From assembly GCA_903906315.1 (NCBI GenBank), contig CAIVJW010000351.1, positions 1-56,115 on the forward strand: a stretch of DNA of 56,115 bases. Direction: 5' to 3'. Under the pieces are notes generated by a model. It worked only from the letters and a program-made list of their open reading frames with translations, made no database searches and was not told the origin of the DNA. A program made the translations under genes and the position numbers. Shown piece by piece: positions 2,483 to 53,300 of this stretch; the first letter of the stretch is position 1, and every line of letters begins with the position of its first letter. Source of the stretch: an uncultured delta proteobacterium (lineage in GTDB: Bacteria > Myxococcota_A > Polyangia > Polyangiales > Polyangiaceae).

Positions 2483-2505
2483 AGCGCCTCGCGCCGCGCC
2501 CGGAG

Positions 2506-2533: not shown

Positions 2534-2535
2534 GC

Positions 2536-2563: not shown

Positions 2564-2570
2564 TTCGGGC

Positions 2571-3182
2571 GTGGCCTCCTCCACCGTCCGCAAGCCCACC
2601 GCCGAGCGTCGCGAGGAAATCGCCGACGCCGCCCTCCGCATCATCGGCACGCGCGGCATCGCGGCGCTCACGGTCGCGACGCTCGCCGCCGAGCTCGGCC
2701 TGACGGGTGGCGCGCTCTACCGCCACTTCCCGTCGACCGAGGCGATCCTCGACGCCGTCGCCGCGCGCGCGGAGGCGCTGCTCGACGACACGCTGCCGGC
2801 CGGGGGGCTGCCTCCGCTCGAGTGGCTCGAGCGCTTCGCCGAGTCGCGCACGCGCACGGTGGGGACGCACGTCGGCCTCGCGCGCCTGATGCTCTCCGAG
2901 CAGGTGGCGTTCTCGCTGTCGCCCGCCGCCGTCGCGCGCCTGCAGGGGGTCGTCGACCGCTCCCGCGCCGGGATCGCGCGGGCGCTCGTCGAGGCCCAGG
3001 CGGCGAGTCTCGTGCGCGACGACCTCCCCGCGGCGGCCCTCGCGCCCATCGTCATGGGCACGCTGCAGATGATCGCGATGCAGCGCGCCGACACCGGGAT
3101 CCAGCGCGTCCCCGGGGATCCGATGAGCCTCTTCCGCACGCTGATGACCTTGCTCGCCCCCGCCCGGAGCCACCGCCGATGA
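2571..3182 (+). CDS. TetR/AcrR-family transcriptional repressor
   Basis: The protein has 203 residues, typical for TetR regulators. The N-terminal helix-turn-helix spans roughly residues 15-58 and includes TVATLAAELGLTGGALYRHF, whose end is the family signature. The C-terminal ligand pocket is too variable to read a ligand from. The start is GTG 2571, directly after the operator-like palindrome. Its stop overlaps the ATG of the exporter gene (ATGA), so it heads an operon with the membrane fusion protein, permease and ATPase. The likely role is ligand-relieved repression of that exporter and of itself. Confidence 0.9.
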   Translation: MASSTVRKPTAERREEIADAALRIIGTRGIAALTVATLAAELGLTGGALYRHFPSTEAILDAVAARAEALLDDTLPAGGLPPLEWLERFAESRTRTVGTHVGLARLMLSEQVAFSLSPAAVARLQGVVDRSRAGIARALVEAQAASLVRDDLPAAALAPIVMGTLQMIAMQRADTGIQRVPGDPMSLFRTLMTLLAPARSHRR

Positions 3183-23159: not shown

Positions 23160-23188
23160 GCCTCGCCGCCCTGGATGGTGTCGTTCAT
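23156..23188 (-). other. Possible 10-residue leader ORF coupled to the giant kinase
   Basis: ATG at 23188 opens a frame encoding MNDTIQGGEA, whose TGA (23158-23156) overlaps the kinase GTG as GTGA. Such a leader could couple translation into the weakly initiated GTG, which has no clear Shine-Dalgarno of its own. It may equally be chance. Confidence 0.25.
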
Positions 23189-23499
23189 CGTTGCCGGGGA
23201 TCCTGCCTGGAGGATCCAGGCGGGGCAAGGCGCCCCGCGTGCCGATCGGCCGGGCGCGGCTCGATCGCGGCGAGGGGCGCGCACGCTCGCCCGCGCGATC
23301 TCGGCCAGTTGCGGCGATCCGAAGGTGTTCCTTCCCCGGTGCGCTACAGCCTATCCACGGTCGCGCAGGCCCCGAGGCCGTGGGCTTCACGCGGTCGCGT
23401 CCCCTCGGGCGCGCGGCGGATCGAGGCGAAGCGCCTCCGTGCGTCAATCGCGCGGAACGGGCTACAGGTGCGGCTTCTCCCATCCGTAGGCTTTGCCGT
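23160..23499. other. Divergent intergenic region between two kinase genes
   Basis: This 340-bp region must hold promoters for both kinase genes. I see two perfect small inverted repeats: GCCTGGA-GGA-TCCAGGC at 23205-23221 and GAAGG-TGTT-CCTTC at 23321-23334. No convincing -35/-10 pair was found on either strand. Open frames here are short and read as composition noise. Confidence 0.4.
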
Positions 23500-25329
23500 A
23501 TGGCTCTCTCGCCGTCGGACCGTCCGGCCACGAGGCCTTCGGGCCTCGGTCGCCGGCGCGCCCTCGGCCTCGGCGGGTCGGTCGGCCTGTCGGACTGGGC
23601 GCTGTCGCCGGTGCTGGTGGTCGTGACCACGCTCGGCGTCGTGCACGCCGCGCGGCCGTGGCTCGAGGCCCGCATCGGTGCGCGGCTATCGAACCTGCTC
23701 GACCTCCTGGCGGTCGTCGCGACGGGCCTGTTGGCGGCCGTCGCGTGGGGCCTCGCGACCAGCCGCGCCCGGGTCGTCGCGACCATGGCCGACCGCGAGG
23801 ACCGCTTTCGCGTCCTCTGGGAGCACGCGAACGACGCGGTGCTGATCGTCGACGCGCGCCGTCGCGTCCTCGAGGCGAACGCGCGGGCGGCGGAGCACTT
23901 CGGCCGACCGATCGACGACCTCGTCGGCCGCTCCCTGGACGATCTGCGTCCAGCGGACGCGAACGGGGAGGTCGCGCTCGTGGGCCTCGGCGACGCGCGC
24001 TACGAGACCGTTCACCTCCGGGCCGACGGCTCCGAGCGCGAGGTCGAGGTCAGCGCCCGCCGCGTCACGCTCGGTAACGAGGAGGTCGTCCTCGAGATCC
24101 TGCGCGACGTCACCGATCGCAACCGCGCCGAAGCGCGCGTGCGAGAAGGCGAGGAGGACCTCCTCCGCCTGAACCAGGTCCAGCGCACGATCCTCGACAA
24201 CGCCAACGTCGGCATCTCCTTCACCCGCGACCGCGCGCTCGTGTGGGTCAACCGCCGGATGGCCGAGATGTTCGGGTACGCCTCGCCCGCGGACCTGGTC
24301 GCGATGTCGACGCGTCAGCTGTTCCCGACCGCCGAGGCGGAGGAGGCGCTCGACGCCGAGGGGGCCGCGGTGCTCACGGCCGGCGGCGTGTTCGAGGCCG
24401 AGCGCGAGCTTTGCCGCGCCGACGGCGTCGCGCGCTGGGTTCGCCTTTCGGGCAAGGCCGTCGACCCGAAGGCGCCGTCCGCCGGCAGCATCTGGGTGTT
24501 CGACGACGTCACGGCGCGGAGGCAGGTCGAGCTCGATCTCGCCGCCCGACGCCGAGAGCTCGAGGACCTCAACGTCGGCCTCGAGGCGCGGGTCGCGAAG
24601 GGAGTCGAGGAGCTGCGCGAGCGCGACCGCCTCCTCATCGTGCAGGGCCGCCAGGCCGCGATGGGCGAGATGATTGCCAACATCGCCCACCAGTGGCGCC
24701 AGCCGCTGAACGCGCTCGGCCTCGTCGTCGCCAACCTCGCCGACGCCCAGGGGATGGGGGAGCTCGACGACGCGACGCTCGACCGCGCCGTGGCCGACGC
24801 GAACCGGCTCATCCAGCGCATGTCGACGACAATCAGTGATTTTCGCAATTTCTTCCGGCCGGACAAGGTCAAGCGGGGGTTCTCGACGCTCGAGCAGGTC
24901 GAGGCCGCGATCGACCTCGTCCGCCCGAGCTTCCGGGCGCAGCAGGTCACGATTCAGCTCGACGCGCCGGCGGACGTCATGATCTGGGGGTTCCCGAACG
25001 AGTACGCTCAGGTGGTCCTCAACCTGCTCGTCAACGCGCGCGACGCCATCGTCGGGTCGGGCGCTCTGGCCGGTATCGTCCACATCGACCTTTCGACGCT
25101 CGACGGCGAAGGGTGGCTCTGGGTCCGCGATACCGGGGGGGGCATCGCGCCCGAGGTGTTAGACAAGATGTTCCTGCCATATTTCTCGACGAAGCCGAAC
25201 GGCACCGGGATCGGGCTCTACATGTCCAAGACGATCATCGAGCAGAACATGGGCGGCCGCCTGGCGGCCCAGAACGTCCCGGGTGGCGCCGAGTTCGCGG
25301 TCATCGTTCCGTGCGCGAGCCGGCCATGA
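23500..25329 (+). CDS. Membrane-bound PAS histidine kinase
   Basis: 609 residues from ATG 23500. Two hydrophobic helices (about 34-51 and 66-87) give a short membrane hairpin. Then come PAS (about 100-210), PAS (222-342), a coiled coil (343-385) and a kinase core with His397 in IAHQWRQPLNALG. The ATPase domain has NLLVNARDAI as N box, DTGGGIAP, and GTGIGLYM. The AHQWRQPL type of core is found in many orthodox sensor kinases lacking a receiver. Its stop overlaps the start of the next gene (ATGA), so the receiver-bearing protein that follows is the likely partner. Confidence 0.92.
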   Translation: MALSPSDRPATRPSGLGRRRALGLGGSVGLSDWALSPVLVVVTTLGVVHAARPWLEARIGARLSNLLDLLAVVATGLLAAVAWGLATSRARVVATMADREDRFRVLWEHANDAVLIVDARRRVLEANARAAEHFGRPIDDLVGRSLDDLRPADANGEVALVGLGDARYETVHLRADGSEREVEVSARRVTLGNEEVVLEILRDVTDRNRAEARVREGEEDLLRLNQVQRTILDNANVGISFTRDRALVWVNRRMAEMFGYASPADLVAMSTRQLFPTAEAEEALDAEGAAVLTAGGVFEAERELCRADGVARWVRLSGKAVDPKAPSAGSIWVFDDVTARRQVELDLAARRRELEDLNVGLEARVAKGVEELRERDRLLIVQGRQAAMGEMIANIAHQWRQPLNALGLVVANLADAQGMGELDDATLDRAVADANRLIQRMSTTISDFRNFFRPDKVKRGFSTLEQVEAAIDLVRPSFRAQQVTIQLDAPADVMIWGFPNEYAQVVLNLLVNARDAIVGSGALAGIVHIDLSTLDGEGWLWVRDTGGGIAPEVLDKMFLPYFSTKPNGTGIGLYMSKTIIEQNMGGRLAAQNVPGGAEFAVIVPCASRP

Positions 25330-26498
25330 AGAGCGTCGACCCCGACGACCTGCGCTACCTCCGCGGGCTGACCGTCCTCTACGTCGAGGACGACGACGAG
25401 ACGCGGGCGCAGCTCGCCGAGTTCCTCGGGCGCCGCGTCCACCGCGTGATCGTCGCCAGCGACGGCGCCGCGGGGCTCGCGGACTACCGCGCGTTCCGGC
25501 CCGACCTCGTGATCACCGACATCCAGATGCCCCCGATGGACGGGCTCACGATGGCGCGCCTGATCCGCGAGGTCGACGGCGCCGTCCCCATCCTGGTCAC
25601 CACGGCTTTCGACCAGACCGAGTACCTCACGCGCGCGATCGACATCGGCGTCGAGACCTACGTGATGAAGCCCGTCGAGGGCCCCCGGCTGCACGCCGCG
25701 CTCCTCTCCTGCGCGCGCAAGCTCCGGCTCGAAGCCGAGGCGGACCACCGCCGATCGCTCCAGGCCGACCTGCTCCGCGCCGAGGCCGTGGCCGTGCTCG
25801 CGGCGGGCATGGCGCACGACTACAACAACCTGCTCCAGACCGTGCTCGGCAACCTCTCGCTCGCGCGCGAGCTCATCGCGCCCGACGCGCCGGCCGCCTG
25901 CCTGCTCGAGGAGGCGGAGGACGCGGCGAGCGAGGCGAGCGCGCTCGGCGCCATGCTCCGTCGCCTCGCCCACCGGGGCCCCCCTCCCGTCGCCTCGACC
26001 GACCTCGCCCGCGCCCTGCGAACGGCCCTCGAGGACGCGCTCGAGGGCCATCCGATCGAGCTCGGGCTCACGCTGCCCGAGGGCTGTCCGCCGGTCGCGA
26101 TCGAGGAGACCGAGCTCCGCGTCGTCGTCCGGCACCTCGTCGCCAACGCCTGCGAAGCGATGCCCACCGGCGGCACGCTGCGGGTCTCGGCCGACGTCGT
26201 CGTCGACCCGGGGACGACCACGCTGCTGCTCGGCGAGGGCTCGTACGTGCGGATCGTCTTCCTCGACTCCGGGCACGGCATCGCGCCCGAGTCCCTTTCG
26301 CGCGTGTTCGATGCCTACTTCTCCACGAAGGATCGCGGCTCCTGGCGCGGCATGGGCCTCGGCCTCACCGTGACGCGGTCGATCCTCGAGCACTACCGGG
26401 GGACGGTGTTCGCCGAGAGCGGTCCGGACGGCGGCGCTGCGGTCCACGTCCTCGTCCCGGTGGCCGCCCACGTCGTCGACGGAACGCCCGCCCCGTAG
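25326..26498 (+). CDS. Receiver-histidine kinase fusion (N-terminal receiver)
   Basis: 390 residues. The N-terminal receiver has the acidic pair in YVEDDDE, Asp65 in VITDIQMPPMDG and Lys115 in VMKPVEG. A linker helix leads to a small kinase core with His164 in AGMAHDYNNLLQ, ANACEAMPTGG as N box, DSGHGIAPES, and GMGLGLTVT. The receiver precedes the kinase, the reverse of normal hybrids, so phosphorylation by the upstream kinase may switch this kinase on or off. Translation is coupled to the upstream membrane kinase by a 4-base overlap. No DNA-binding domain. Confidence 0.9.
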   Translation: MKSVDPDDLRYLRGLTVLYVEDDDETRAQLAEFLGRRVHRVIVASDGAAGLADYRAFRPDLVITDIQMPPMDGLTMARLIREVDGAVPILVTTAFDQTEYLTRAIDIGVETYVMKPVEGPRLHAALLSCARKLRLEAEADHRRSLQADLLRAEAVAVLAAGMAHDYNNLLQTVLGNLSLARELIAPDAPAACLLEEAEDAASEASALGAMLRRLAHRGPPPVASTDLARALRTALEDALEGHPIELGLTLPEGCPPVAIEETELRVVVRHLVANACEAMPTGGTLRVSADVVVDPGTTTLLLGEGSYVRIVFLDSGHGIAPESLSRVFDAYFSTKDRGSWRGMGLGLTVTRSILEHYRGTVFAESGPDGGAAVHVLVPVAAHVVDGTPAP

Positions 26499-29063: not shown

Positions 29064-30956
29064 GTGTCCGCTCCGCTTCGGTTCCAGGCCCTCGAGTCGT
29101 TCGAGTGGTCGGACACCCCCATGTGGGTGTTCGATTTCGCCCACCGCCGCATGGCCTGGGCGAATGCGAGCGGGGTCGCGTTCTGGGACTCGCCCTCGCT
29201 CGCGGAGCTCCTCGCGCGCGACTTCTCGAAGCTGTCCGAGGCGACCGTCATCCGCAACGAGGCCACGCTCGCGGAGCACGCCGCGGGGCGCAGCTGCCGC
29301 GAGCAGTGGACGCTCTACCCGAAGGGTAAGCCGGTCACGGTCAAGGCGCACAGCACCGGGGTCTACCTGGCCGACGGCACGCTCGCGATCCTCTACGAGG
29401 CGCACCCCGTCCCCGAGGGCGTCGACCCCACGGTGCTGCGCGCCGTCGAGGCGCTCCAGCACACCTCGGTCCGCGTCGCGCTGCACCGCATGGACGGCGT
29501 CGCCGTGCTGCGCAACCCGGCGGCCGTGCGCGTGCTCGGGTCGCTCGCGCCGGACGCGGAGGTCGACGACTTCGCGGCCATGTTCGTCGACAAGGCCGCG
29601 GCCGCGCGCGCGCGGGTGACGGTCGAGGGCGGGGGCACGTTCAGCGAGGAGGTCGAGCTCGTGACGCCCGACGGGGCTCGCTGGCACGGCCTCGACGCGC
29701 GCCCGGTGCTCGACCCGGTGACGGGCGCGACCCTCGTCCAGGTGAACGCCCGCGACATCAGCGACCGCAAGGCCGCCGAGCGCGCGCTCGAGCGCGCCAA
29801 GCAATACGCCGAGGCCGCCAGCGTCGCGAAGAGCCAGTTCCTCGCGAACATGAGCCACGAGATCCGGACGCCGATGAACGGCGTCATCGGCATGCTCGAG
29901 GTGGTCCTCGAGACCGAGCTCGCCCCGCACCAGGTTCGCCACCTCGAGATGGCGCGGACCGCGGCCGACTCCCTGCTGTCGGTGATCAACGAGATCCTTG
30001 ATTTTTCGAAGATCGAGGCGGGCCAGGTGCAGCTCGAGCGGATCAACGTCGACGTGCGCGGGGTCGTCGACCAGGTCATCGCGCCCATGCAGGTCCGCGC
30101 GCGCCAGAAGTCCCTGCGCTTGCGCGCGGCCGTCGACCCGGCGATCCCGCTGCGCCTGCTCGGCGACCCGCATCGGCTCACGCAGGTGCTCGTGAACCTC
30201 GTCGGCAACGCGCTCAAGTTCACCGAGCGTGGCTTCGTCGTCGTGTCGGCGGATCTCATCGAGCAGAAGGGCACGACGGCGGAGGTCCTCTTCGCGGTGC
30301 GCGACACCGGCATCGGCATCGCGCCCGAGCACCAGAAGCGCATCTTCGAGCAGTTCGTGCAGGCGGACGGGTCGACCACGCGCCGATTCGGAGGCACGGG
30401 GCTCGGCCTGTCGATCTGCTCGCGCATCGTGCGTCTCATGGGGGGTGAGCTGTGGGTCGAGAGCGAGCCGGGCAAGGGCAGCTCCTTCCGGTTCCGCGTC
30501 CCGCTCTCGACGCCGCCTCGCGAACAGGCGAGCGTGCCCGTGATGTCGACGACCCACGCCGCGCGCCGCGAGCCGTTCGGGCGCAAGCGCACGATCTTGC
30601 TCGCCGAGGACAACGCGGTAAACCAGGAGGTCGCGGTGACGATGCTCCAGAGCCTCGGGTTCCAGGTCCTCGTCGCCGACGACGGGCGCAAGGCCGTCGA
30701 CGCGGCCGAGACGCGCCCCGACATCGTGCTGGTGCTGATGGACGTGCAGATGCCTGGGATGGGCGGCTTCGAGGCCACGGCCGAGCTCCGTGCTCGTGAG
30801 CACGCCGGCGCCCCGCGCGTGCCGATCCTGGCGATGACCGCCCACGCGATGGAGGGCGATCGCGCGCGCTGCCTCGCGGCGGGCATGGACGACTACGTGT
30901 CGAAGCCCATTCGGCTGGCGACGCTCGTCGAGGTGCTCCAGCGCTGGGCGCCCTGA
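29064..30956 (+). CDS. PAS hybrid histidine kinase with C-terminal receiver
   Basis: 630 residues from GTG 29064. Two PAS-like domains (about 10-115 and 125-238) precede HisKA with His265 in [11 protein letters not shown]. The ATPase domain has [23 protein letters not shown] and GGTGLGLS. The receiver (508-628) has Asp560 in [12 protein letters not shown] and a KPI lysine. No membrane helix and no HPt, so an external HPt protein would be needed for a full relay; the HPt domains of the two minus-strand kinases are candidates. It lies 3 bases after the glutathione transferase gene, probably in one transcript. Confidence 0.92.
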
Positions 30957-39992: not shown

Positions 39993-42900
39993 ATGCCGAA
40001 CGACTCGAAGAGGTCCGTGCCCATCCGACTCGACTCGCTCGCGGAGGTGCTCGCCGAGCGCCACGAGAGCGAAGCGGCCGTGCTCGACGTGCTGATCGGG
40101 GGCCTCGCCCGCGGTCAGTCGAACGCCGAGCTCTGGGCGATGCTGCACGCCGCGGCGCGGCGCGACGATCGCGTGTCGGAGCTCGCGTTCGCCTACGAGT
40201 CGGCGCTCGGCGACAAGAAGGTGCGGCTGCTCGCCGCGGCGGCGCAGGTCGACCTGCAGATGCACGCGGCCCGATTCTTCGTCGACGATTTCGGCGACGT
40301 GGAGGGCGCGGTACCGCACCTGGAGCGGGTGATCGCGCTGGCGCCGGTGAACGCGGAGGCGTTCGAGCGGCTCGAGGCTTACCTCGTCGAGCGCCGCGAG
40401 GACCGGCGATTGGCGGAGCTCTACGCCTCCGTCGCCCAGTTCCGCGAGCGCGGTGAGCAGCTGCGCCTCCTCCGGCGGGCCATCCAGATCTTCTCCGGCA
40501 TCGCCGGCGAGGACGACCGGGCGGTCAAGCTCGGGCGCGAGGTGCTGCGGCTGGATCCGCAGGACCGCGCCACGCGATCGGTGATCGAGGCGAAGCTCGT
40601 CCGCGCCGGGCGCGCGGGCGAGGCGGCGCGGCTCCTCGAGCAGGCGCTCGTAGACGCGGCCGAGGGCGACGCCGACGAGGCGCTCGCCCTGCGGACCAGG
40701 CTCGTCACGATCTACGCGGGGATCTCGGAGCCCGAGCGCGCGCTCCCCCACGCGGAGGAGATCCTGCGCGTCGACCCGGCGCACGAGGCGGCGCGCGCCA
40801 CGCTGGGCGCGCTGCTCTCGAACAAGGCGCTCGCGGTGCGGGCGGCCGCGGCGCTCGAGGGAGCGCACGAGCGGACCGGCGACCTCGCCGAGGCGGTGCG
40901 CCTCCTCGCGCTGCAAGTGGAGGCGCTGCGCGGGCCGAAGCGGCTCGAGGCGCAGAAGCGGCTGCTGGTGCTCCTCGCGGACCGCCTCGGCGACGCCGAC
41001 GCCGCGTTCGCGGTCTGCGAGGCGGTGGTGCCCGTCGATCCGGGCGACGAGGCGATCCGCCAGCGCCTGCGCGCGCTCGCGGCGCAGCTCGGCCGCCCGC
41101 TCGACGCGGCGCGCGTGATGCAACGGGCGAACCTCGTCTGCCGCGACGTCGTGCTCCGCGCTGGGCTCGGGGCCGAGCTCGGCGAGCTCTACCTCGAGGG
41201 CGGGGACGTGAAGAAGGCGCGCCTGTCGCTCGCTTCCGTCATCGACGGCGGGGCCGACGCGGGCGCCGTGCTCCGCGCGTCGCGCGCGCTCGGGATCCTG
41301 TGCACGCGCGAGCAAGACGCGCGTGGGCTCGCGGCGGTGCTCCAGCGCCTCGGCGAGATCGAGGTCGACGCCGCCGCGCGCGCCGAGGCGACCGTGCGGC
41401 TCGCGGCGATCTGCGAGGGAGCCCTCGCCGACCCGGCGGGCGCCGTCGCGGCGTACCGCCGGCTGTTCGACACTCCGCACGAGGAGGAGGCGATCGGCGC
41501 GCTCGAGCGGCTGCTCGCCGGCTCCGACGACCTGCTGGCCCTCGCCGAGATCCTCGACCGCAAGGCGCTCCACACCGCCGATCCCGGGGCCGCGCGCGAT
41601 CTCGCCTTCCGCGCCGCGGAGGCGCGCACGGCCGGCGCGGAGGACGAGATCGCGATCCGGGCCTGGCGCGCGTTCGCCGACCGCTTCGGGGCGTCGCGAG
41701 CCGTGTACGCGCGCCTCATCCCCCTGCTCGATCGCGCCGCGCGCTGGGAGGACCTCGCCGAGACGCTCGCGGCCGACGCCGAGCTCGCGCCCGAGGACGA
41801 GCGAGCCGCGCTCCTCGGTCGCCTCGGCCTCGCGCGGCTCGAGCGGCTCGGCGATCCGCTCCGCGCCGTCGATGCGTTCGCCCGCGCGCTCGCGCTCGAC
41901 CCGTACGAGAAGGCGAGCGTGCGCGCGCTCGGCGCGTTGCTCGAGGCGGACGGCGAGGTCGCCGTCGCCGCGGCCGACGTGCTCGAGCCGCTGCTTCGCG
42001 CCGAGCGCGCCCGCGGCGACTCGGCGGCCGCCACGCGCGGGCTCGTCCGTGTCCTCCTCGCCCGAGCCGACGCGGCTCCGCTCGCGCGCGCGCGCCTGGA
42101 CGCGCTGGCGGAGGCCGCGAGCCTGACGGCCGGCGAGCTCGCGGACCCGAGGGCCGCCCTCGAGCTCGCCGGCCGCGGGCTCGGCGAGGCCATGCGCAGC
42201 TCGATGCTCGAAGGGCTCGGCCCGTGGCTCGTGCGCGTGGACGCGTTCGCAGTCGTCGCGAGCGAGCCGGGCCGTCGCGCCGTGATCCTCGCCGGGGCGC
42301 TCGGGGACCGGTCGATCGATCACCCCGCCGTCGCCGCGCTCGCTCGCCGCGCGGCCGAGGCGCTCGCCGCGACGGGCGCCGAGCCCGCGGCGATCGCCGT
42401 CTACCGGCGGCTGCTCGCGTTCGATCCGCGCTCGCCCGACGTCGTCGAGCGGATCGACGCCCTGCTGCGCGCGCATGGCGCGCCCGGGGACCGCGCCGAG
42501 GTGCTGCGCGGCGCGCTCGCGCACGAGACGGATCCCGAGGCGCGGCGCCGCCTTCTGCACCTGCTCGCGTCCCTCGAGCGCCACGAGCTCGGCGACCTCG
42601 AGGCGGCCGTCCGGACCTACCGGATCGCCCTCGTCGAGGACCCCGCCGACGCCGAGGCGCGCGAGGCGCTCCTCGAGGCGCACCTCGCGGCGGGCTCGCA
42701 CGACGAGCTCTTCGACGAGCTCGCCCGCGGGCTCGCGGGCGCCGCCGGCGACGACCGCGCGCGCCTGCTCTGCCGCATGGCGGAGGCCGCCGCGGCGGGC
42801 GGGCGGATCGACGACGCGGGCCGCTGCTACGCGGAGGCGCTCGCGGCGCCTGGCGTGGCGCTCGCCGAGAGCGAGCTGGAGGCCGCCGAGCAGGTCGCGG

Positions 42901-45900
42901 TCCGCCGCGACGACCCCGTGCTCGAGCGCGCCGTGCTCGAGCGGCGCGCGGATCTCGCGACCGACGAGGTCGCACAGGTCGCGTGCCTGGAGCGGCTCGG
43001 CCTGCTCGAGGCGACGCGGGGCGGCGACCTCGGCGCCGCGGTGCGCGCGTGGAAGCGCGCTGCGGAGGCGGCGACGCGGGGAGCCGACGACGAAGCGGCG
43101 CGCCGTCTGCACGCGCGCGTGCTCGAGGTGCGGCCGGACGACGCCGACGCGGCGGAGTTCCTCGTCGCCGCGTACCGCGGAGGCGGCGCACCCGCGAAGC
43201 TCCTCGGCGCCTACGAGGCGCTCGCGCGGGCGCGGGCGGGCTCGCCGGCGGTGGTCGACGCCGTGCTCGGGCTCGAGGCCCCGGCCACGATCGAGGGCGC
43301 GGTCGATCGGTTCGTCGCGGCGGCCGACGCCGCGCTCGCGGCCGGCGGGATCGGCGACCCGGGTCGCGTGGCCATCCTGACGGCGCGCGCACGCGTGCTC
43401 GCGGCAGCTCCGGGACGCGAGGACGACGCCGCGGCGGCGTTCCGTGGCCTCGTCGCCGCGGCGTCCGAGCCGGGCGACGCCGCGCGTGCCTTCGAGGCGT
43501 TCCTCGACCGCCACGGGCTGGATCCCGCACGCATTGCGGACCGGCGCTGGCTCCTCTCGTGGCGCCTCGACGCCGCCGCTCCGGCGGAGCGGGTTTCGTG
43601 CCTGATCCGCTGGGCGGAGGCCGAGGAGCGCGCCTTCGGTGACCTCGCCGCGGCTGCGGACCTCCACGGCAGGGTCCTCGCGATCGAGCCCGCTCACGAC
43701 GAGGCGCTCGGTGCGCGCGCGCGGTTGCTGCTCGCGCTCGGTGACCCGGAGGGCGCGCTCGCGGCCCTCGTCGCGCGTCGCGAGGGCGCCGCGGGGCCCG
43801 CCCGCGCGTCGCTGTCGATCGCGATCGCCCGCCTCTCGCTCGAGCCCCTCGGCCGCGTGGACGAGGCGCTCGGGGCGCTCGAGGCTGCGATGTCGGTAGC
43901 CCCGAACGATCCGGCCGCGATCGCGCTCGTCGAGCACGCGATGACGCTGCCCGCCGCTCGCGCTCGCGCGTCCGCGTTGCTCGAGCGGGCGGCCGAGGAG
44001 GGCGGCGATGCGCCCACGTCGCGCCGCCTGCTGCGCGCGCTGCTCGCCGATCCGGACGCGCCGGCAGAGGACCGCCGGAGGTGGCTCGGTCGCCTCGTCG
44101 ACCTGGACGCCGACGACCCGGGGTCGGCGCTCGAGTCGGTGCTGGCCGCGCTGCGCGAGCTCCCCGGCGAGGCCTCTCTCTGGGATCGGGCCGAGGCGCT
44201 CGCGCGTGAGCTCGACCTGCCCGTCGTCGTCGCGGAGGCCTATCGCCACGCGATCGATAGCGCCGCGCTGGGCCTCCCCGACGAGGCGTTCGAGGAGCTC
44301 GGGCAGCGCGCGGTCGCGTTCCACGAGGAGTGGCTCGACGAGCCCGAGACGGTGGCGACGATCCTGCGCCGCGTGCTCGCGAGGTGTCCGTCGGCGACGT
44401 GGGCGTTCGATCGGCTCAAGCTCTTCTTCAACGCGGCCGAGCGCTGGGACGAGCTGTTCGCGGCGTACGACGAGGTGATCGCGGCCTCGCCCGTCGACCA
44501 GCGCATCGCGCTCCTCGAGGACGCGGCCGAGACGGCCCGCGATCTCGCCGGGGACGTCGACCGCGCCATCCGTTACCTCGAGGGCCTCTTGCCGTGGAAG
44601 CGCGAGGCGCGCGTCACGGCCTCGCTGGAGCGCCTCTACGAACGCACCGGGCGGCACCGCTCGCTCGTCGAGCTGCTGTCGCACGATCTCGCCGAGCTCG
44701 ACCTCGAGGCGGCTCAGCGGCTGCGCATTCGCATCGCGGGCCTCTGGCTCGACGCCGGCGACGCGGCGGCCGCGTGCGGCGTCCTCGAGGACGCGATCGC
44801 GCTCGAGCCGTCGCGTCCCGAGGTCGTCGAGCTGCTCGAGCGCGCGCTCGCGCAGACCGCGGGCGCAGACGATCCCGCTCGCCGTCGGGTCGCCGTGCTC
44901 CTCGTCGCGCGCTACCGCGTCGAGGGGCGCGACGTCGACCTCGCGCGGGTCCTCGAGATCGCGCTGTCGGCCGAGCGCGAGCCCGCCGCTCGCGCCGTCT
45001 TGCTCGCGGACTTGCGCGACCTTCGCGCGAAGCTCGGCGACGATGCGGGCGCGCTCGCGCCGAGCGCCGAGCTCGCCGCGCTCGAGCCGGGCGTACCTTC
45101 GCACCTCGCGGAGCTCGAGCGTCTGGCCGCCGGCGTCGGGCGGCTCGACGTCTTCGCCGACACCCTCTCGCGCATTGCCGAGGCGCGCTCCGACGGCGCC
45201 GAGCGCGCTGCGCTCTACGCGCGATCCGCGGCGCTCTACGAGGGGCCGCTCGCCGATCCGGCCCGCGCCGCGGCGCTGCGGCGCCAGGTGATGGCGCTCG
45301 CGACCGACGACGAGGAGGTGCTGGCGTCCGCGCGCGTGCTCGAGCAGCTGCTCGGCTCGCTCGGGCGAGGCGCCGAGCGCTGCGAGGTGCTCGAGCGGAT
45401 CGCCTCGATCGCAGGCGATCCCGTGGAGCGACGCGCCGCGCTCGCCGAGGTGGCCCGCGTGGCGACCGAGGCCGGGGACGACGCGCGCGCCATCCGCGCC
45501 TGGCGGGCGCGCGTCGACGCCGCCCCCGAGGACCGCGCCGCGCAGGTCGGGCTCGTCGAGGCGCTCACCCGCCTCGGGCTCCACGAGGACCTCGCCGTCG
45601 CGCTCACGCGCCGGGCCGGGTTCGCGCCCGACGTCGCGGCGGCTCGTGACGACCGCGCCGCCGTCGCGCGGCTCCTGGCCGGGCCGCTCGGGCGGCCCGC
45701 CGAGGCCATCGAGGTCTGGACGCGCCTGCGCGAGGAGCTCGGCCCCGACGACGCGAGCTGCGATGCGCTCGCCGAGCTGCTCGGCGCCGCGGGGAGGGGG
45801 GACGACCTCGCGGCCCTCCTCGATGCGTCGCTCACGGCCGCCACGACCCAGGATCGCCGCGTCGAGCTCGCTCGTCGGCTCGGCGACACCCACCGCCTCC

Positions 45901-48900
45901 GCACGCGCGATCTCGACCTGGCCGTTCTCGCGTACGGCATGGCGCTCGGCGACGACCCGGGCGATCGGGGCGCGCTCGACGGCCTCGAGGCGATCGTCGA
46001 GGAGCTCACCCGCGCGGCGCGGCCGGGGGCGCCGCCGCCGCTATTGCGTTCCGCGGTCGACGCGATCGTCGCCGTTCAGGCGGAGCGCGATGCGTGGGAT
46101 GCCACGCTCCGCCTGCTCGAGCCTCGCCTGCTCGTCGCGGCCGACGACGCCGCGCGGGTCACCTTGCTGCTGGAAGCCGGGGGGCTGCACGAGGGGCGGG
46201 CGGGCGATCCCGAGCGGGCCTTCGAGGCCGTGTGGCGCGCGTTCCGGCTCTCGCCGTCCGGCGCCGCCGGCGTCGAGGTCCTGCGCCTCGCGACCGTCGC
46301 GGACCGCTGGGCCGACGTGGCCGAGGGGCTGCCGCGCGCGCTCGAGGGGCGCGATCCACCGGCCGCGACGGTGGCGCGCGACCTGTTCTCCCACGTGGGC
46401 GCTTGGGCGCGGGACGTGCGGCTCGACCCCGAGGCCGCCGAGGCCGCGTTCGCGCGCGCGCTCACCCGTGATCCGGAGAACGCCGAGCTGCTCGCGTCGG
46501 TCGCCGACCTTCAACGCCGCGCGCCGGGCGCAGCGCTCGTCGCGACCCTCCTCCGGCTCTCGGACGCGAAGGGCGGCGACCTCGCGCTCCTGCGCGAGGC
46601 TGCGGCGGTCGCCCGCGGGCCCGTCGGCGATCGCGATCGCGCGAGAGGCATCGCCGAGCGCCTGCTCGACCTCGCGACCGAGCGCTGGCTCGCCGCGGGC
46701 GACGAGGGCGGCGCGCCTCGGGATGCCGCGGCCTGGGCCCTCGCCGCGCTGATCGATCTCGCCGACGACGTCGCGGACGCGGGCACGCCGGCCGCACCTC
46801 GCTCACCCGACGTCCGCGCGCGGCTGATCGAGCTGCACCTGCGCGGCGCGTCGCTGCCCTTCGGTGCGGCCGATCAGCGGCGCATGCGGCTCGACGCGGC
46901 CGCGCTCGCCGACGACGACCGGGCGATGGATCTCTACCGAGCGCTCTTCGAAGAGCGCCCCGAGGACGAGATCGTCGCCTCCCGGCTCGAGGCCCTGTAC
47001 CGAAGCGCGGGTCGCAGCCACGAGCTGCTCGCGCTGCGCGAGCGCCAGATCGCCCTCGTAGAGGGCGATCCGAGAGCTCGCCTGCGCCTGGACGTCGCCG
47101 AGATCCGCGCCGCGCTGGGGGAGCGCGAAGCGGCGGCGAGCATCCTCCGCGAGAGCCTCGTCGAACGGCCCGGCCACGAGGCCTCGGCCGACCGGCTCGG
47201 GCAGCTGCTCGCCGAGCTCGGGCGCAACGCCGAGCTCGTCGCGCTGCTCGAAGATCGGGCGACCTTCGCCGAGCGCGCCGGCGATCTGCCCCGCGCCTCG
47301 GCCGCGTTCGAGCGCGCGGGCACCCTCGCGATCGAGCGCCTCGCCGACCCGGACCGCGGGCTGATCTCGCTGGAGCGCGCCGCCGAGCTCGGCTCGGACC
47401 CGGCCCTCGACGCGGTCGCCCGGCTCCGCGCCGCGCGCGGTGACCACGCCGCCGCGGCCGACGCGCTCGAGCGCCTGTGCGAGCGCGGCGCCCCCGAGAC
47501 CGTCGCGATCGCGCTGCCGCGCCTGCTCTCGTCGCTCGTCGACGCCGGTCGTTACGCCGACGCGCGCGATCGGCTCGACGTGGCGCTGGCCGCGGGCGTC
47601 CCGGGCGGCGACGCCCTGCGGGGCTGCCTGCTCGCGCTGTTCCGCGGCGCCGCTGCCTGGGGGCCGCTCGCCGACCTCCTCGCCGTCGAGGCGGACCTCG
47701 CCGCCGATCCGGAGGCGAAGCTCGCCGGGCTCCGCGAGGCCGCGGACCTGCACCTCGACCGGCGAAGCGATCCCGCCTCCGCCGTACCGCTCCTCGAGCG
47801 GGCCGCAGCCGTCGCCCCCGCCGACCGCAGCGTCGCGCTCACTCTGGCGGCGGCGCTCTCTTCGATCGGGCGCCCGGCCGACGCGGCCGAGGTGCTCCGC
47901 GGCATCCTCGCGAGCTACGGCGCGCGCCGGCCCCGGGATCGCGCGCGCTTCCACCACGAGCTCGCGCGCGCCCTCCTGGCGGCCGACGACCGAGCCGGCG
48001 CGCTCGCCGAGCTCGACCTCTGCCTGCGCATCGATCCCGCGCACGCCGCAGCGTTGAGCGTCCAGGCGCGCCTCGCGATCGACGACGGCCAGGTCGAGCG
48101 CGCCCAGCGCACGCTGCGCGCCTTGCTGCTCGTCGTGAAGACCGCCGGGGCGGACGCCGGCGTCGGCCGCGCGGAGGTGCTCTGCGAGCTCGGGTACGTC
48201 TCGGAGCTCTCGGGCGACCACGCTCGCGCCGAGGAGCACCTCGAATCGGCGATCGAGCTCGCGCGCAGCGACGCCGGCGAGTGGCCGGCCATCCTTCGCG
48301 CGCTTCGCGATCGGAAGCGCGACGGCGCGCTCGGGCGGGCGCTCGCCGCGCGCCTCGAGGGTGCCGTCGGGATCGCGCCGGACGAGGCAGCGCCGCTCTT
48401 TTGCGAGCTTTCGGCGGTGGAGGAGCGGCTCGGGCGGCCTGACGCCGCCTTCTCTGCGAGCCTCTGCGCCGTGGAGGCCGCGCCAGGCGGCGCTGCGGTT
48501 CACCAGCTCGCGGCCGCGCTCGCCCACCGCCTCGACCGTGCCGCCGACTACGCGGCCGCGCTGACGGCGCTGGCCGATCGCCTCGACGACGGAGGCGCTC
48601 TCGCGGCGGTCGCGCTCCACGCGCTCGCCGTCCGCCTCGCGGAGGTCGGCGCCTCGGATGATCGCGTGCTCGGCCTCCTTCGTCGCGCCGAGCAGCGGGC
48701 CGTCAGCGCCGGCGTCGAGGCGTCCGCGATCCGGTGTTCGTTGCAGTCGATCTACGCGCGGAGCGGCGACGAGGCCGCGGCGGAGGCGCTGCTCGAGCAA
48801 CAGCTCGCCGCGTTCGCGCTGGACGCGGTCGGCGCCGACGTCGCCGAGGCTGCGCTGGCGCTCGCCGCCCTTCGGATGAGCCATCCTTCCGGCGTCGACG

Positions 48901-51851
48901 GCGGCGTCCCCCTCCTCGATCGCGCGCTGCGCGCCGGCGCCGCCCCCGATCGCGTCGAGGTGGCCGTGCGCCAGGGCCTCGCCGGGTGCCCCGACCACGC
49001 GGCGCTCGCCGACCTGCTCGCGCGGATCGGCCGCGACCACGGCCGGCCTCGTGCGCGCCTCGACGCGCTCGTGCTGCGCGCCGAGGCGGCTGCGAAGCGC
49101 GCGGAAGGACTGGGATCTTCGGCGGACTGCCACGCGGCCGTCGCGGCGCTCCGCGAGGCCGCCGAGCTCGCCGCCAGCCAGGGCGACATCGCGAGCGTCG
49201 AAGGGCTGGCGGCGCGCGCTCTCGCCCTCCTGCCATCCGCGGAGGGCACAGCTGCGGACGACGCCGACCTCGGCTGGGCGCTCTCGGATCTCGCCCGCGT
49301 GCGCGAGCGCGCCGGCGACCGCGCCGAGGCGTCGTCGCTGTGGGAGCGCGCAGCTCGCGTGGCCGCGCCGTCCGAGCGCCGCTCCTTGCTCCTCAGCGCC
49401 GCCTCGCGAGCCGAGGACCCGCAGCGATCCGCCACGATCCTCGAGGAGCTCGTGGCAGAGGACCCGTCGGACCCCGTCGCGTGGTCCGCGCTCGTCGCCG
49501 CCCTCGAGCACCTCGGCGGCGCCTCGCGCGTCGCGCTGGCCACCGAACGCGCGCTCGCGTCCCTGTCGGACGCGCCGCTCCGCGTGTCGCGCCTGCGCGA
49601 GCTCGCGCGCCTCGTCGGCGCGTCGGACCCGGCGCGCGCCGCGGCGTTGCTCGAGCCGGCGCTCGGCGACGACCCCGATCTCGACCTGGTGGCCGATGAG
49701 GTCGTCGCGCTCCTCGGGCGCGCGGGCCTCGACGACGACCTCGCGCGGGTGCTGACCGTGCGCGTCGCCGTGCTCGCCGCGCGCGGGGACGTCCCCGCGA
49801 CGGCCGCGACGGGGCTCCTTCTCGGCGCGGCGCTCGAGCGCTTGGGGCGCACCGACGGCGCGCTCGCGGCGTACCGTGGCGCCCTCGCCGCCGACCCGAC
49901 CAACCTGGACGCGCTGCGCGCGGATCTGCGCCTCGACGGCGGCGGGACGGTCGACCTCTGCGAGGTGATCGCGCGCCTCCTCGCGACGGGCGCCGTCCTC
50001 GACGCCGCCCAGGTCGCTCTCGAGACGGCTGCGGCGCGCGGCGCGACCGGTGACGAGGACGGCGCGCTCGAGGCGCTCCTCGAGGGCCACTACGCTTGCC
50101 CGGGCAGCGCCCCCCTCCTCGACGCCCTCGTCGCCCGCTACGACGCGCGTGGCGACCACCGCGCGGTGGTCGAGCTCCACGTAGCCACCGCCGCGGCCTC
50201 GCTCGCCATCGACGAGCGCGTGGCGGCCCTGCGCGCGGGCGCAGCGGTGCTGCGTGACCGCGTCGGAGACGTCCACGGCGCCGTCGAGCTGCTCCTCGAG
50301 GCGCACGCGATCACCCCCGACGATCGGGCTCTGCTCGAGGCGCTCGTCGACGCCTGCGGCGCGGCGGGCGATCACCGCCGCGCGCTCGCCGCGCTGTCCG
50401 TGGCGATCGATCGCAGCCCGGCCGACGGCGCGCTCTACCGGCTGCGCGCGTCCCTCCACGACGCGGTCGGCGACGAAGACGAGGCCCTCGCCGATCTCGA
50501 GCGCGCCAACGACGCGAGCCACGGCGAGCACACCCTCGAGCTCGTCGCGATGCTCGAGCACGCCCTCGAGGTCCTCGACGCACGGCCCCTCTCGCTGAGC
50601 GTGCCGGCGAACAAGCCGCGCTCGACCGTGCCGCCCGTGCGCGCGTCGCAGCCGCCGATGGAACCGACCCCGGGGCCGCCACCGCCGTGGTCTGCCCCGG
50701 TGCCTCCGGTCGTCTCGTTCGACTCCGAGGAGATCACCGCCACGGGCGTGAGGCCGATGCCGACGAGGCCCAAGGCTCCCCGGGCCAACGGCAGCGCGAT
50801 CGCGGTCGTGGTGGGACCTTCCCGCGAGCGGACGCTCCGGCTGCGCTTCGCCGAGGTGCTCGTGCGCTCCGGCGACGTCGACCGAGCGCGCAGCCAGCTC
50901 GCGACGCTCCTGCACGCCGACCCCGCCGATGCGGACGCGCTCCACGCGGCGGCGCTCCTCGAGGAGGGCGCGCGTCGCTGGGACGCGGCGACGGGCCTCT
51001 ATCGCCGCCTCCTCCCGTTGATCGAGGGGGACGCGCTCGCGGACATCGCGCTGCGCCTCGCCGACACGAGCGAGCGCGTCGGGCGCCCCGGGGACGCGCG
51101 CGCGGGCCTCGAGCGCGCGCTCGCGTTCGGGCCTCCGCGGCCAGCCCTCGGCCTGCGCCTCCGCGCGATTGACGATGCGATCGCCGCGGCCGACGGCGAG
51201 TGGAGCGCGAACGACGTCGAGGCGCTGCCGCCCGACCTGGCCGAGCGGTTCGCGCTGCTCGTGCAGGCGGGGCGCCGTGCCCTGGAGGGGGACCTCGCCG
51301 GTGACCGCGCAGTCGCGCCGCTCGAAGAGGCGCAGCTGCTCCGCCCCGACGACGACGACGTCGCCGTTCTCCTCGCGGAGGCCTACGTAGAGGCCGATCG
51401 TCGCGCCGACGCCGAGATCCTCGCGACGCGCGTCGCCGGACAGCGAATGGGCGTGCGATCGCGCGCGATCGCCGCGATTCACCGACTGCGCGCGCGCCTC
51501 GCCAGCGAGGACGGCGCGGACGACGAGGCGCTCGTCGCGATCACGGAGGCGTTCGTGTGCGATCCGTACGACCCCGCCATCGGCGTCGAGCTCGCTCAGC
51601 GGGCGATCGACGTCGGCGACGTGGACACCGGGCGCCGCGCGCTCGACGCCGTCGTGAACACCCGTCGCGCGGGCGACGGCGCGGGTCGCTCGGTCGCGCC
51701 GCTGCGCGCACGAGCGCTCCACCGCCTCGCGGAGCTCGCGATCTCCGACGGCGATCGCGCGCTCGCTCGGTCGCTCCTCGAGCAGGCCCTGCGCGAAGAT
51801 CCGGCCTCCGATGGGGCCCGCTCGACGCTCGCGGAGATCGACGGCGGGTGA
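39993..51851 (+). CDS. Giant TPR-repeat scaffold protein (3952 residues)
   Basis: One uninterrupted frame fills 21% of the window. Nearly all of it is helical repeats of about 34-38 residues with TPR-like phrases such as LGREVLRLDPQD, FARALALDPYEK and YRGALAADPTN, rich in Ala, Leu, Arg, Asp and Glu. There is no signal peptide, membrane helix or enzyme motif, so a cytoplasmic scaffold is likely. At about residues 3535-3610 a proline-rich hinge (NKPRSTVPPV, PTPGPPPPW) breaks the repeats; a final about 340-residue TPR block follows. ATG 39993 is chosen, as repeats begin soon after. The HU-like gene follows 362 bases later. Role unknown. Confidence 0.88.
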   Translation: MPNDSKRSVPIRLDSLAEVLAERHESEAAVLDVLIGGLARGQSNAELWAMLHAAARRDDRVSELAFAYESALGDKKVRLLAAAAQVDLQMHAARFFVDDFGDVEGAVPHLERVIALAPVNAEAFERLEAYLVERREDRRLAELYASVAQFRERGEQLRLLRRAIQIFSGIAGEDDRAVKLGREVLRLDPQDRATRSVIEAKLVRAGRAGEAARLLEQALVDAAEGDADEALALRTRLVTIYAGISEPERALPHAEEILRVDPAHEAARATLGALLSNKALAVRAAAALEGAHERTGDLAEAVRLLALQVEALRGPKRLEAQKRLLVLLADRLGDADAAFAVCEAVVPVDPGDEAIRQRLRALAAQLGRPLDAARVMQRANLVCRDVVLRAGLGAELGELYLEGGDVKKARLSLASVIDGGADAGAVLRASRALGILCTREQDARGLAAVLQRLGEIEVDAAARAEATVRLAAICEGALADPAGAVAAYRRLFDTPHEEEAIGALERLLAGSDDLLALAEILDRKALHTADPGAARDLAFRAAEARTAGAEDEIAIRAWRAFADRFGASRAVYARLIPLLDRAARWEDLAETLAADAELAPEDERAALLGRLGLARLERLGDPLRAVDAFARALALDPYEKASVRALGALLEADGEVAVAAADVLEPLLRAERARGDSAAATRGLVRVLLARADAAPLARARLDALAEAASLTAGELADPRAALELAGRGLGEAMRSSMLEGLGPWLVRVDAFAVVASEPGRRAVILAGALGDRSIDHPAVAALARRAAEALAATGAEPAAIAVYRRLLAFDPRSPDVVERIDALLRAHGAPGDRAEVLRGALAHETDPEARRRLLHLLASLERHELGDLEAAVRTYRIALVEDPADAEAREALLEAHLAAGSHDELFDELARGLAGAAGDDRARLLCRMAEAAAAGGRIDDAGRCYAEALAAPGVALAESELEAAEQVAVRRDDPVLERAVLERRADLATDEVAQVACLERLGLLEATRGGDLGAAVRAWKRAAEAATRGADDEAARRLHARVLEVRPDDADAAEFLVAAYRGGGAPAKLLGAYEALARARAGSPAVVDAVLGLEAPATIEGAVDRFVAAADAALAAGGIGDPGRVAILTARARVLAAAPGREDDAAAAFRGLVAAASEPGDAARAFEAFLDRHGLDPARIADRRWLLSWRLDAAAPAERVSCLIRWAEAEERAFGDLAAAADLHGRVLAIEPAHDEALGARARLLLALGDPEGALAALVARREGAAGPARASLSIAIARLSLEPLGRVDEALGALEAAMSVAPNDPAAIALVEHAMTLPAARARASALLERAAEEGGDAPTSRRLLRALLADPDAPAEDRRRWLGRLVDLDADDPGSALESVLAALRELPGEASLWDRAEALARELDLPVVVAEAYRHAIDSAALGLPDEAFEELGQRAVAFHEEWLDEPETVATILRRVLARCPSATWAFDRLKLFFNAAERWDELFAAYDEVIAASPVDQRIALLEDAAETARDLAGDVDRAIRYLEGLLPWKREARVTASLERLYERTGRHRSLVELLSHDLAELDLEAAQRLRIRIAGLWLDAGDAAAACGVLEDAIALEPSRPEVVELLERALAQTAGADDPARRRVAVLLVARYRVEGRDVDLARVLEIALSAEREPAARAVLLADLRDLRAKLGDDAGALAPSAELAALEPGVPSHLAELERLAAGVGRLDVFADTLSRIAEARSDGAERAALYARSAALYEGPLADPARAAALRRQVMALATDDEEVLASARVLEQLLGSLGRGAERCEVLERIASIAGDPVERRAALAEVARVATEAGDDARAIRAWRARVDAAPEDRAAQVGLVEALTRLGLHEDLAVALTRRAGFAPDVAAARDDRAAVARLLAGPLGRPAEAIEVWTRLREELGPDDASCDALAELLGAAGRGDDLAALLDASLTAATTQDRRVELARRLGDTHRLRTRDLDLAVLAYGMALGDDPGDRGALDGLEAIVEELTRAARPGAPPPLLRSAVDAIVAVQAERDAWDATLRLLEPRLLVAADDAARVTLLLEAGGLHEGRAGDPERAFEAVWRAFRLSPSGAAGVEVLRLATVADRWADVAEGLPRALEGRDPPAATVARDLFSHVGAWARDVRLDPEAAEAAFARALTRDPENAELLASVADLQRRAPGAALVATLLRLSDAKGGDLALLREAAAVARGPVGDRDRARGIAERLLDLATERWLAAGDEGGAPRDAAAWALAALIDLADDVADAGTPAAPRSPDVRARLIELHLRGASLPFGAADQRRMRLDAAALADDDRAMDLYRALFEERPEDEIVASRLEALYRSAGRSHELLALRERQIALVEGDPRARLRLDVAEIRAALGEREAAASILRESLVERPGHEASADRLGQLLAELGRNAELVALLEDRATFAERAGDLPRASAAFERAGTLAIERLADPDRGLISLERAAELGSDPALDAVARLRAARGDHAAAADALERLCERGAPETVAIALPRLLSSLVDAGRYADARDRLDVALAAGVPGGDALRGCLLALFRGAAAWGPLADLLAVEADLAADPEAKLAGLREAADLHLDRRSDPASAVPLLERAAAVAPADRSVALTLAAALSSIGRPADAAEVLRGILASYGARRPRDRARFHHELARALLAADDRAGALAELDLCLRIDPAHAAALSVQARLAIDDGQVERAQRTLRALLLVVKTAGADAGVGRAEVLCELGYVSELSGDHARAEEHLESAIELARSDAGEWPAILRALRDRKRDGALGRALAARLEGAVGIAPDEAAPLFCELSAVEERLGRPDAAFSASLCAVEAAPGGAAVHQLAAALAHRLDRAADYAAALTALADRLDDGGALAAVALHALAVRLAEVGASDDRVLGLLRRAEQRAVSAGVEASAIRCSLQSIYARSGDEAAAEALLEQQLAAFALDAVGADVAEAALALAALRMSHPSGVDGGVPLLDRALRAGAAPDRVEVAVRQGLAGCPDHAALADLLARIGRDHGRPRARLDALVLRAEAAAKRAEGLGSSADCHAAVAALREAAELAASQGDIASVEGLAARALALLPSAEGTAADDADLGWALSDLARVRERAGDRAEASSLWERAARVAAPSERRSLLLSAASRAEDPQRSATILEELVAEDPSDPVAWSALVAALEHLGGASRVALATERALASLSDAPLRVSRLRELARLVGASDPARAAALLEPALGDDPDLDLVADEVVALLGRAGLDDDLARVLTVRVAVLAARGDVPATAATGLLLGAALERLGRTDGALAAYRGALAADPTNLDALRADLRLDGGGTVDLCEVIARLLATGAVLDAAQVALETAAARGATGDEDGALEALLEGHYACPGSAPLLDALVARYDARGDHRAVVELHVATAAASLAIDERVAALRAGAAVLRDRVGDVHGAVELLLEAHAITPDDRALLEALVDACGAAGDHRRALAALSVAIDRSPADGALYRLRASLHDAVGDEDEALADLERANDASHGEHTLELVAMLEHALEVLDARPLSLSVPANKPRSTVPPVRASQPPMEPTPGPPPPWSAPVPPVVSFDSEEITATGVRPMPTRPKAPRANGSAIAVVVGPSRERTLRLRFAEVLVRSGDVDRARSQLATLLHADPADADALHAAALLEEGARRWDAATGLYRRLLPLIEGDALADIALRLADTSERVGRPGDARAGLERALAFGPPRPALGLRLRAIDDAIAAADGEWSANDVEALPPDLAERFALLVQAGRRALEGDLAGDRAVAPLEEAQLLRPDDDDVAVLLAEAYVEADRRADAEILATRVAGQRMGVRSRAIAAIHRLRARLASEDGADDEALVAITEAFVCDPYDPAIGVELAQRAIDVGDVDTGRRALDAVVNTRRAGDGAGRSVAPLRARALHRLAELAISDGDRALARSLLEQALREDPASDGARSTLAEIDGG

Positions 51852-52213: not shown

Positions 52214-52555
52214 ATGGCAGCGAAGAAGACGGCCGCCGCCGGCGGCGCGAAGAAGAGCCTGAGCAAGAGCGCCTTCATCCTGGCGGTCGCCGAGTCGATC
52301 GGTGAGGAGCTCACCAAGAAGCAGGTCAAGCACGTGCTCGAGGCGATCAGCGACGTCGGCTACCGCGAGCTGAAGAAGAGTGGCCTCTTCACGTTGCCTG
52401 GCTTCGCGAAGTTCCGCGTCGTGAAGAAGCCCGCCACCAAGGCGCGCCAGGGCGTGAACCCGTTCACGAAGCAGGCGATGACCTACGCCGCGAAGCCGGC
52501 CAGCAAGTCGGTCCGCGCGCGCCCGATCAAGGCGATCAAGGACGCGCTGCTGTAG
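52214..52555 (+). CDS. HU/IHF-family DNA-binding protein
   Basis: 113 residues. HU-family proteins bend and compact DNA as dimers. SKSAFILAVAESIGEELTKK is the helical dimer part, GLFTLPGFAKFRVV the saddle strands, and NPFTKQ sits where HU has the intercalating arm sequence with its proline. A Lys/Ala-rich leader of about 14 residues (KKTAAAGGAKK) and a basic C-terminal part (KSVRARPIKAIK) extend the core of about 90. ATG 52214 has GAAGGAG 10 bases upstream. Downstream is a strong terminator. Confidence 0.9.
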   Translation: MAAKKTAAAGGAKKSLSKSAFILAVAESIGEELTKKQVKHVLEAISDVGYRELKKSGLFTLPGFAKFRVVKKPATKARQGVNPFTKQAMTYAAKPASKSVRARPIKAIKDALL

Positions 52556-52676: not shown

Positions 52677-53300
52677 TCACTTCTTCTTGGCGTACACCTG
52701 CGCGGCGACCGGGCCCGATCCGGTGCGGGCCTTGAGCAGCACGCGCACGGGCACGGGCAGCGGGAAGGCCCACTGGACGCAGGCGTTCTTCGCGCCGATC
52801 GCCGCCTGCGGGCCCGAGTCCGTGCTGACCGCGATCACCGGCTTGATGCCCAGCGCGGCGACGGCGGGGCCGGCCACGCTCGCGTCGATCTCGAGCTGCA
52901 GATCGAGCTGGGTGACGCCCGGGAGCGACTGCCCGACGACGGTGTAGCAATGCCCCGCCTCGAGCAGGAACGTCGGGCCCGTGTACGTCTGCCCTTCCGG
53001 CGTGATCGCGCAGATGGCGCCGCCCGCGGCCTTCATGCCGGGGGCGTCGGCCGTCGCCCGGCCCTGGATCGCCGTCGTCATCGCGAGCGACTGCACCGCG
53101 TCGCACGGCGTCGGCGCGGACGGGGCCGGGGGGGCAGCGGCGACGACCAGGGGAGGAGGCGGCGGCTGCAGCACGGCGACCCCCGCGTCCGGCGCCGGCG
53201 TCTCGGCGAACTTCGCGCCGCCGCCGCCGCAGCCGACGATTGCGCACGCGAACAACGTGCTCGCGCCCATCGAGATGAGGATCTTGGTCGAGTCGTTCAT
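52677..53300 (-). CDS. Lipoprotein of unknown function
   Basis: 207 residues. The signal peptide ends in CAIVGC, followed by Gly and a Pro/Ala-rich linker (about 35-65). The globular part has three Cys (CDAVQSL, GAICAIT, GHCYTVV) plus NACVQW, and strand-rich phrases such as LDLQLEIDA. The repeated strand pattern suggests a small periplasmic beta domain. No family is recognised; similar lipoproteins with GHCYTVV-type motifs occur in myxobacteria as far as I know. Confidence 0.75.
   Translation of the reverse strand: MNDSTKILISMGASTLFACAIVGCGGGGAKFAETPAPDAGVAVLQPPPPPLVVAAAPPAPSAPTPCDAVQSLAMTTAIQGRATADAPGMKAAGGAICAITPEGQTYTGPTFLLEAGHCYTVVGQSLPGVTQLDLQLEIDASVAGPAVAALGIKPVIAVSTDSGPQAAIGAKNACVQWAFPLPVPVRVLLKARTGSGPVAAQVYAKKK

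Follow-up and report, generated by a model that had tools for sequence, protein, structure and literature searches.

The window analysed here, a stretch of 56,115 nucleotides from a soil bacterium, raises the question of what a single protein of nearly four thousand residues, apparently built of TPR repeats from one end to the other, is for. Its gene is an uninterrupted frame of 3,952 codons on the + strand from the ATG at 39993, which was taken as the start; the same frame opens upstream of this ATG, at GTG 39717. The codon-position G+C content of the frame (0.86/0.54/0.92) is coding-like, and the product has a mass of 415.4 kDa, a pI of 4.95 and an alanine content of 23.3%. In agreement with the original prediction of no signal peptide, the hydropathy profile gives no indication of a signal peptide or a membrane segment (the highest mean over 19 residues is 1.61, and 0.70 within the first 60). 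The gene, its parts and two of its neighbours are listed below; residue numbers refer to this giant protein unless another protein is named.

39993..51851, + strand: giant TPR protein gene, with full-length relatives in other genomes
40083..44042, + strand: N-terminal block, residues ~31-1350, apparently a diverged en bloc copy of residues ~1380-2700; absent from relatives of 2,520-2,847 codons
44130..50501, + strand: putative ancestral core block, residues ~1380-3503, collinear with a 2,640-residue paralogue and best conserved at about 1401-1600
50595..50810, + strand: proline-rich linker, residues 3535-3606, with 19 prolines in 72 residues, predicted to be disordered and expanded in the window protein only
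50826..51848, + strand: final TPR block, residues 3612-3952, kept in most relatives
52214..52555, + strand: HU-like DNA-binding protein of 113 amino acids, a neighbour kept in one group of relatives only
52677..53300, - strand: 207-codon gene without a Pfam family, travelling with the HU-like gene in one group

A frame of this size could have been produced by an assembly error joining separate genes, and this explanation was checked and rejected: relatives with frames of 3,375-4,730 codons occur in dozens of genomes, and similar-sized ones are present in the complete genomes of Sorangium strains So ce26 and So ceGT47 and of Minicystis rosea. Judged by these sequences, the gene is real and not an assembly join. 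In Sorangium cellulosum So0157-2 (locus L082, 9635-22163), two overlapping frames of 1,604 and 3,376 codons are found, reflecting either a real break or a sequencing error.

The Pfam search of the giant returned TPR families only and no other domain, enzyme domains included. Four profiles exceed their curated cut-offs, namely TPR_8 (44.8 vs. 25.7 bits), TPR_1 (44.0 vs. 27.8), TPR_17 (34.5 vs. 24.4) and TPR_19 (29.8 vs. 25), which together with sequence periods of 34 and 37 residues places the protein in the TPR superfamily of 34-residue helix-turn-helix repeats. The TPR families of NCBIfam all score below their curated cut-offs (MamA, 116.1 of 200 bits; PrsT, 74.5 of 312.2; Tgl, 19.4 of 225), and membership in these three was rejected. 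Autocorrelation was computed on an alignment of 46 rows, which comprises the window protein, 39 of the 53 named frames (complete and longer than 2,500 codons) and six others; it peaks at lags 17, 34, 37 and 71 (z 17.9, 14.6, 13.5 and 12.7). We interpret lag 17 as one helix, lags 34 and 37 as one hairpin each, and lag 71 as a TPR pair, and the working unit of the giant appears to be this pair of about 71 residues (34+37). The unit model, which was started from one 71-residue unit of the window protein and iterated to a final length of 60 positions, has 46 matches in the giant and 2,072 in the 46 rows, as compared with 10 in 46 shuffles of the giant. These matches cover 2,468 of the 3,952 residues (62%), thus the model does not tile the whole protein.

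Structure prediction with AlphaFold covered two segments, amounting to 2,213 of 3,952 residues (56%). Residues 1391-2500 are predicted to form 61 helices (mean pLDDT 90.2, pTM 0.41) and residues 2850-3952 to form 56 helices (mean pLDDT 86.5, pTM 0.45), with no strand in either segment; helical hairpins run throughout both, and over that part of the length the solenoid is continuous. The overall curvature is unreliable given the low pTM values. Extrapolated from these two segments, the whole giant would contain about 212 helices, or 106 hairpins, and the earlier estimate of about a hundred repeats with no other domain therefore stands. The sequence search of the PDB gave 51 sequences at E <=0.001, the nearest being designed TPRs and the TPRs of O-GlcNAc transferase, and the nearest folds identified by Foldseek are TPR adaptor subunits, such as Ski3, Ctr9 and IFT-A chains. 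TM-scores do not exceed 0.33 among the matches listed, indicating that the repeat type is shared and the overall shape is not.

The original prediction had also called such a solenoid rare, which is not borne out within this group of bacteria. The first 1,000 residues of the window protein match five additional large TPR frames of the genome it comes from; their open frames have 3,920 codons on contig C293, 2,656 on C17, 3,809 and 1,957 on C127, and 1,918 on C27, and gene lengths of 3,770, 2,640 and 3,806 codons were taken for the C293, C17 and large C127 giants, respectively. Matches to the giant are present in all 59 near genomes searched, many of them being other giant types. The unit model detects 50 units in the C293 giant, 42 in the large C127 giant, and 33, 16 and 14 in other giants. 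In three other genomes, relatives of the C293 type are adjacent to a gene that was identified by eye as a class IV-type aminotransferase. The window giant is thus of an ordinary kind for large-genome Myxococcota, unusual in scale compared with bacteria at large, uncharacterised, and restricted to its family. Besides the gliding one, the genomes of Polyangiaceae encode a set of giant TPR proteins, on which a literature search combining TPR with myxobacterial terms found no paper; the text of PMC3169522 on gltI homologues mentions several copies without describing them.

The N-terminal third of the giant appears to be a copy, made en bloc, of the third that follows it. Each protein was cut in two before BLAST in 41 of the 46 rows (at least 3,300 residues; L082 was excluded as two frames), and in 35 of these 41 long relatives the part before residue 1376 finds its best match in the remainder at a constant offset of 1344-1353 residues in window coordinates; in the other six, no internal match reached E 1e-6. 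The offset of about 1,349 corresponds to 19 units of 71 residues, i.e., 1,349 residues, and the match itself is directly visible over residues 31-730 of the window protein and, in a Polyangium relative, over 31-1022. The C17 protein from the same genome is collinear with residues 1376-2107, 2127-3503 and 3612-3952 of the giant at 33-38% identity. In a comparison of equal-length pieces of the window protein, the second copy is 37.6% and the first copy 29.4% identical to this paralogue; only this comparison was used, because the count by which the second copy scores higher in 41 of 41 rows is biased by the longer second piece. Thirteen short relatives, chosen for a frame of 2,500-2,850 codons and space for flanks, represent six families of the order and class, all different from that of the window genome; all 13 are collinear with the C17 paralogue over nearly the whole length and start near residue 1371-1392 of the giant where that end is matched. 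The short form of about 2,600 residues without the N-terminal block is accordingly found in the window genome and 13 others. Of 144 genomes from the order, 44 have the long form among the matches listed, as counted by an N-terminal match of at least 34% identity with an E-value of 2.4e-70 or better, and all 44 belong to the family of the window genome; the next match listed below these (E 7.5e-61 at 32%) belongs to a different giant type.

Most simply, the long form would descend from the form of about 2,600 residues by a single en bloc duplication of some 19 TPR pairs that took place in an ancestor belonging to the family. A quick tree of the 46 rows is compatible with such a duplication, and it would also accord formally with loss of the block from the short form instead of gain by the long one, since it is unrooted, contains many open forks and includes a window row of deviating composition. 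The new point is the 19-pair block duplication with the short form retained: copying of a block of about 19 TPR pairs is a clean mode of growth, and the short form in the same genome provides a natural control.

A proline hinge near the C-terminus, separating a final TPR block that could act as a mobile docking arm, was another feature of the original prediction. The linker is present where it had been placed, since residues 3535-3606 have pLDDT values below 50 in the model of the second segment and both flanking blocks are confident; the block boundary is real as well, given that the last TPR block is conserved. What did not stand is a conserved docking arm. The stretch between residues 3500 and 3618 comprises 119 residues with 21 prolines in the window protein, but only 37-70 residues in 41 of 45 relatives, among which the Sorangium group is intermediate (55-70 residues, 5-9 prolines). 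In the other four relatives, all from Polyangium, it is missing along with the first ~140 residues of the final block, and the sequence resumes at residue 3755. The proline-richest stretch sits elsewhere in other members, for example around residue 748 of L051 and residue 400 of the C127 giant; L065, a frame of the C293 type, also has a proline-rich stretch near its C-terminus. A hinge as conserved functional design was rejected, as only the window protein has it long and proline-rich and linkers occur at other joints elsewhere. The final TPR block is a real conserved module, and the long proline linker a lineage-specific local elaboration.

As to function, we consider it probable that the giant is a structural solenoid of TPR pairs in the cytoplasm, grown by block copy and working as a multi-client scaffold. 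A cytoplasmic scaffold, as originally proposed, is the natural reading of a protein with TPR repeats only and no signal peptide. The giant would be an adaptor with a purely structural role, folded into a right-handed solenoid of the TPR type with about 106 hairpins, along which several partner proteins may dock on separate surfaces or grooves. Conservation along the 46-row alignment is uneven and highest at about residues 1401-1600, 2601-2750 and 3801-3952, which would be the likeliest docking sites, and the final block would be reached through a joint of freely variable length. Kinship of the unit type to GltI, the giant TPR protein of Myxococcus xanthus discussed below, hints at a motility, envelope or polarity complex as the assembly it organises, more than at a nucleoid one. 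If the scaffold reading is true, these bacteria would contain as-yet-unnamed cytoplasmic assemblies of the size of the focal-adhesion machinery.

Unevenness of conservation would also be expected if the array were the product of a repeat ratchet, i.e., a largely tolerated surplus of neutral length in which a few conserved blocks act. Relatives indeed differ by hundreds of residues and lack whole sections (e.g., about 390 residues after position ~1985 in a group of 3,470-3,550 codons), and linkers arise at different joints. However, the long frames remain open across many genomes at 34-50% identity, which calls for selection along most of the length, and we regard neutral growth as unlikely. 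More doubtful still is an elastic ruler or tether on the scale of the cytoplasm, in which one molecule would link distant cell structures and its length would be set by duplication and variable joints. A TPR superhelix has 7-8 repeats and 6-7 nm per turn; on this geometry, about 106 hairpins would wind through some 14 turns, giving a coil in the range of 0.1 micrometre.

The probability is distinctly small that the window protein is the GltI/AgmK of this genome, the TPR giant that forms part of the gliding (Glt) machinery. In M. xanthus, GltI is described as a TPR protein of 4,132 amino acids in which both signal peptide and membrane domain are absent, and the accompanying table gives 1,191 for gltD, 471 for gltE, 89 for gltF and 640 for gltG, the latter with FHA (PMC3169522). 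GltI belongs to the focal adhesion complexes described in PMC12288465. The window protein falls into the same size class and is likewise cytoplasmic by prediction and TPR only, one unit model matches both giant types, and gltI homologues in Sorangium are said to occur "sometimes in several copies," in a statement made for seven genes as a group (PMC3169522). On the other hand, the large C127 giant stands behind a row of genes encoding, in order, a 1,280-aa exported TPR protein, a 503-aa TPR protein, an 86-aa exported protein, a 717-aa FHA protein and a 359-aa TPR protein, which parallels the published gltD-E-F-G order by size and content. Two distant genomes from the phylum have a similar row ahead of the giant, as judged by eye and from gene sizes, with no FHA gene called in one of them. 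Giants of the C127 type are present in 74 of 79 genomes of the family and have matches in 107 of 235 genomes of the phylum at E 1e-15, some of which are surely other giant types. Neither gltH nor gltJ was recognised beside the C127 giant, and a GYF search for gltJ pointed to nine places in the genome, none of them on contig C127 or C351, thus the assignment of the C127 giant to GltI is one of partial synteny only. The window protein matches the C127 giant in two pieces at 24-26% identity that are not collinear, and it is not among the eight best matches listed for that giant, M. xanthus GltI entering this comparison by description. The window gene is flanked by an esterase-like gene, a methyltransferase gene, Lnt, the HU-like gene and others, with no glt-type gene among them, and so lacks the location near gltD, E, F and G and before gltJ that characterises gltI. 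By position, and probably also by likeness, the window protein is therefore not the GltI of its genome; the C127 giant, which like GltI/AgmK stands in a gliding-type cluster, is a different gene.

The neighbours of the scaffold candidate vary among its relatives. An HU-like gene (Pfam Bac_DNA_binding, E 1.5e-15) does follow the giant, as originally noted, its likely start being the ATG at 52214 behind a purine-rich stretch; a link between the two did not hold up. Both the HU-like and the 207-codon genes follow the giant in the loci of 13 relatives and in the window. The least probable reading is a nucleoid-linked scaffold formed by the giant together with the HU-like protein. The HU-like gene is directly downstream and co-directed in 12 of the 13 relatives' loci that have it (it is the third called gene downstream in L051), and the proteins are 66-80% identical over the matched part. 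However, the two genes are 362 bases apart, and adjacency is confined to one part of the tree, where 14 of 15 rows show it (two resolved groups and, unresolved beside them, the window row), compared with none of 31 others, some with short flanks. The 207-codon gene is equally conserved there and lies mostly on the opposite strand, which suggests that the gene order was inherited. In another branch, a gene of about 305 codons stands upstream of the giant and a J-domain-like gene downstream, and a further branch has a cysteine-containing protein of about 93 codons downstream (naming by eye). No conserved neighbour common to all branches was found, and the gene context therefore gives no function.

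Several further observations concern these surroundings. In L083, L093, L098, L102, L103, L104, L110 and L118, the first or second downstream gene encodes a co-directed protein of about 90-98 codons with a CxxC-type stretch; the same genes stand behind giants of 3,470-3,530 codons. The conserved protein of about 207-280 codons without a Pfam family that accompanies the HU-like gene (52677-53300, - strand, in the window; 564-1400 in L042; 18920-19879 in L051) is accompanied in several relatives by a second, diverged copy nearby. A DUF790 gene adjoins an XPB-type helicase gene at 8135-10715 (- strand) of the window, and this pair is also found near the giant in the Polyangium loci L074-L076 and L080 and in L097 (48-74% identity). 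The window also contains a cluster of genes, at 18195-23786 and 15511-17928 (both - strand), 25113-26498 and 29064-30956, for multi-domain sensor histidine kinases with PAS, GAF, receiver and Hpt domains.

Among known systems, eukaryotic TPR adaptors, such as Ski3, Ctr9, IFT-A chains and the TPR region of O-GlcNAc transferase, share with the window protein the TPR solenoid, a docking platform in the adaptors and probably in the giant; however, the likeness is that of generic repeats at 10-20% identity (TM-score <=0.33 among the matches listed), and the repeats of the window protein are several times more numerous and come with no partner domain. Within its own genome, the C293 giant is of the same unit type and matches in several pieces at about 31% identity, but these pieces follow another order, the type is widespread in the order, and its neighbours differ. 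The C17 paralogue is collinear from residue 1376 on, lacks the N-terminal block of ~1,350 residues, and belongs to a type that occurs outside the family as well. GltI/AgmK (MXAN_4863) is, according to PMC3169522, likewise a giant TPR-only protein of Myxococcota with neither signal peptide nor membrane segment, and its likely counterpart, the C127 giant, is built of the same TPR-pair unit; the window gene differs in lying outside a glt-type cluster and in belonging to a family-restricted set.
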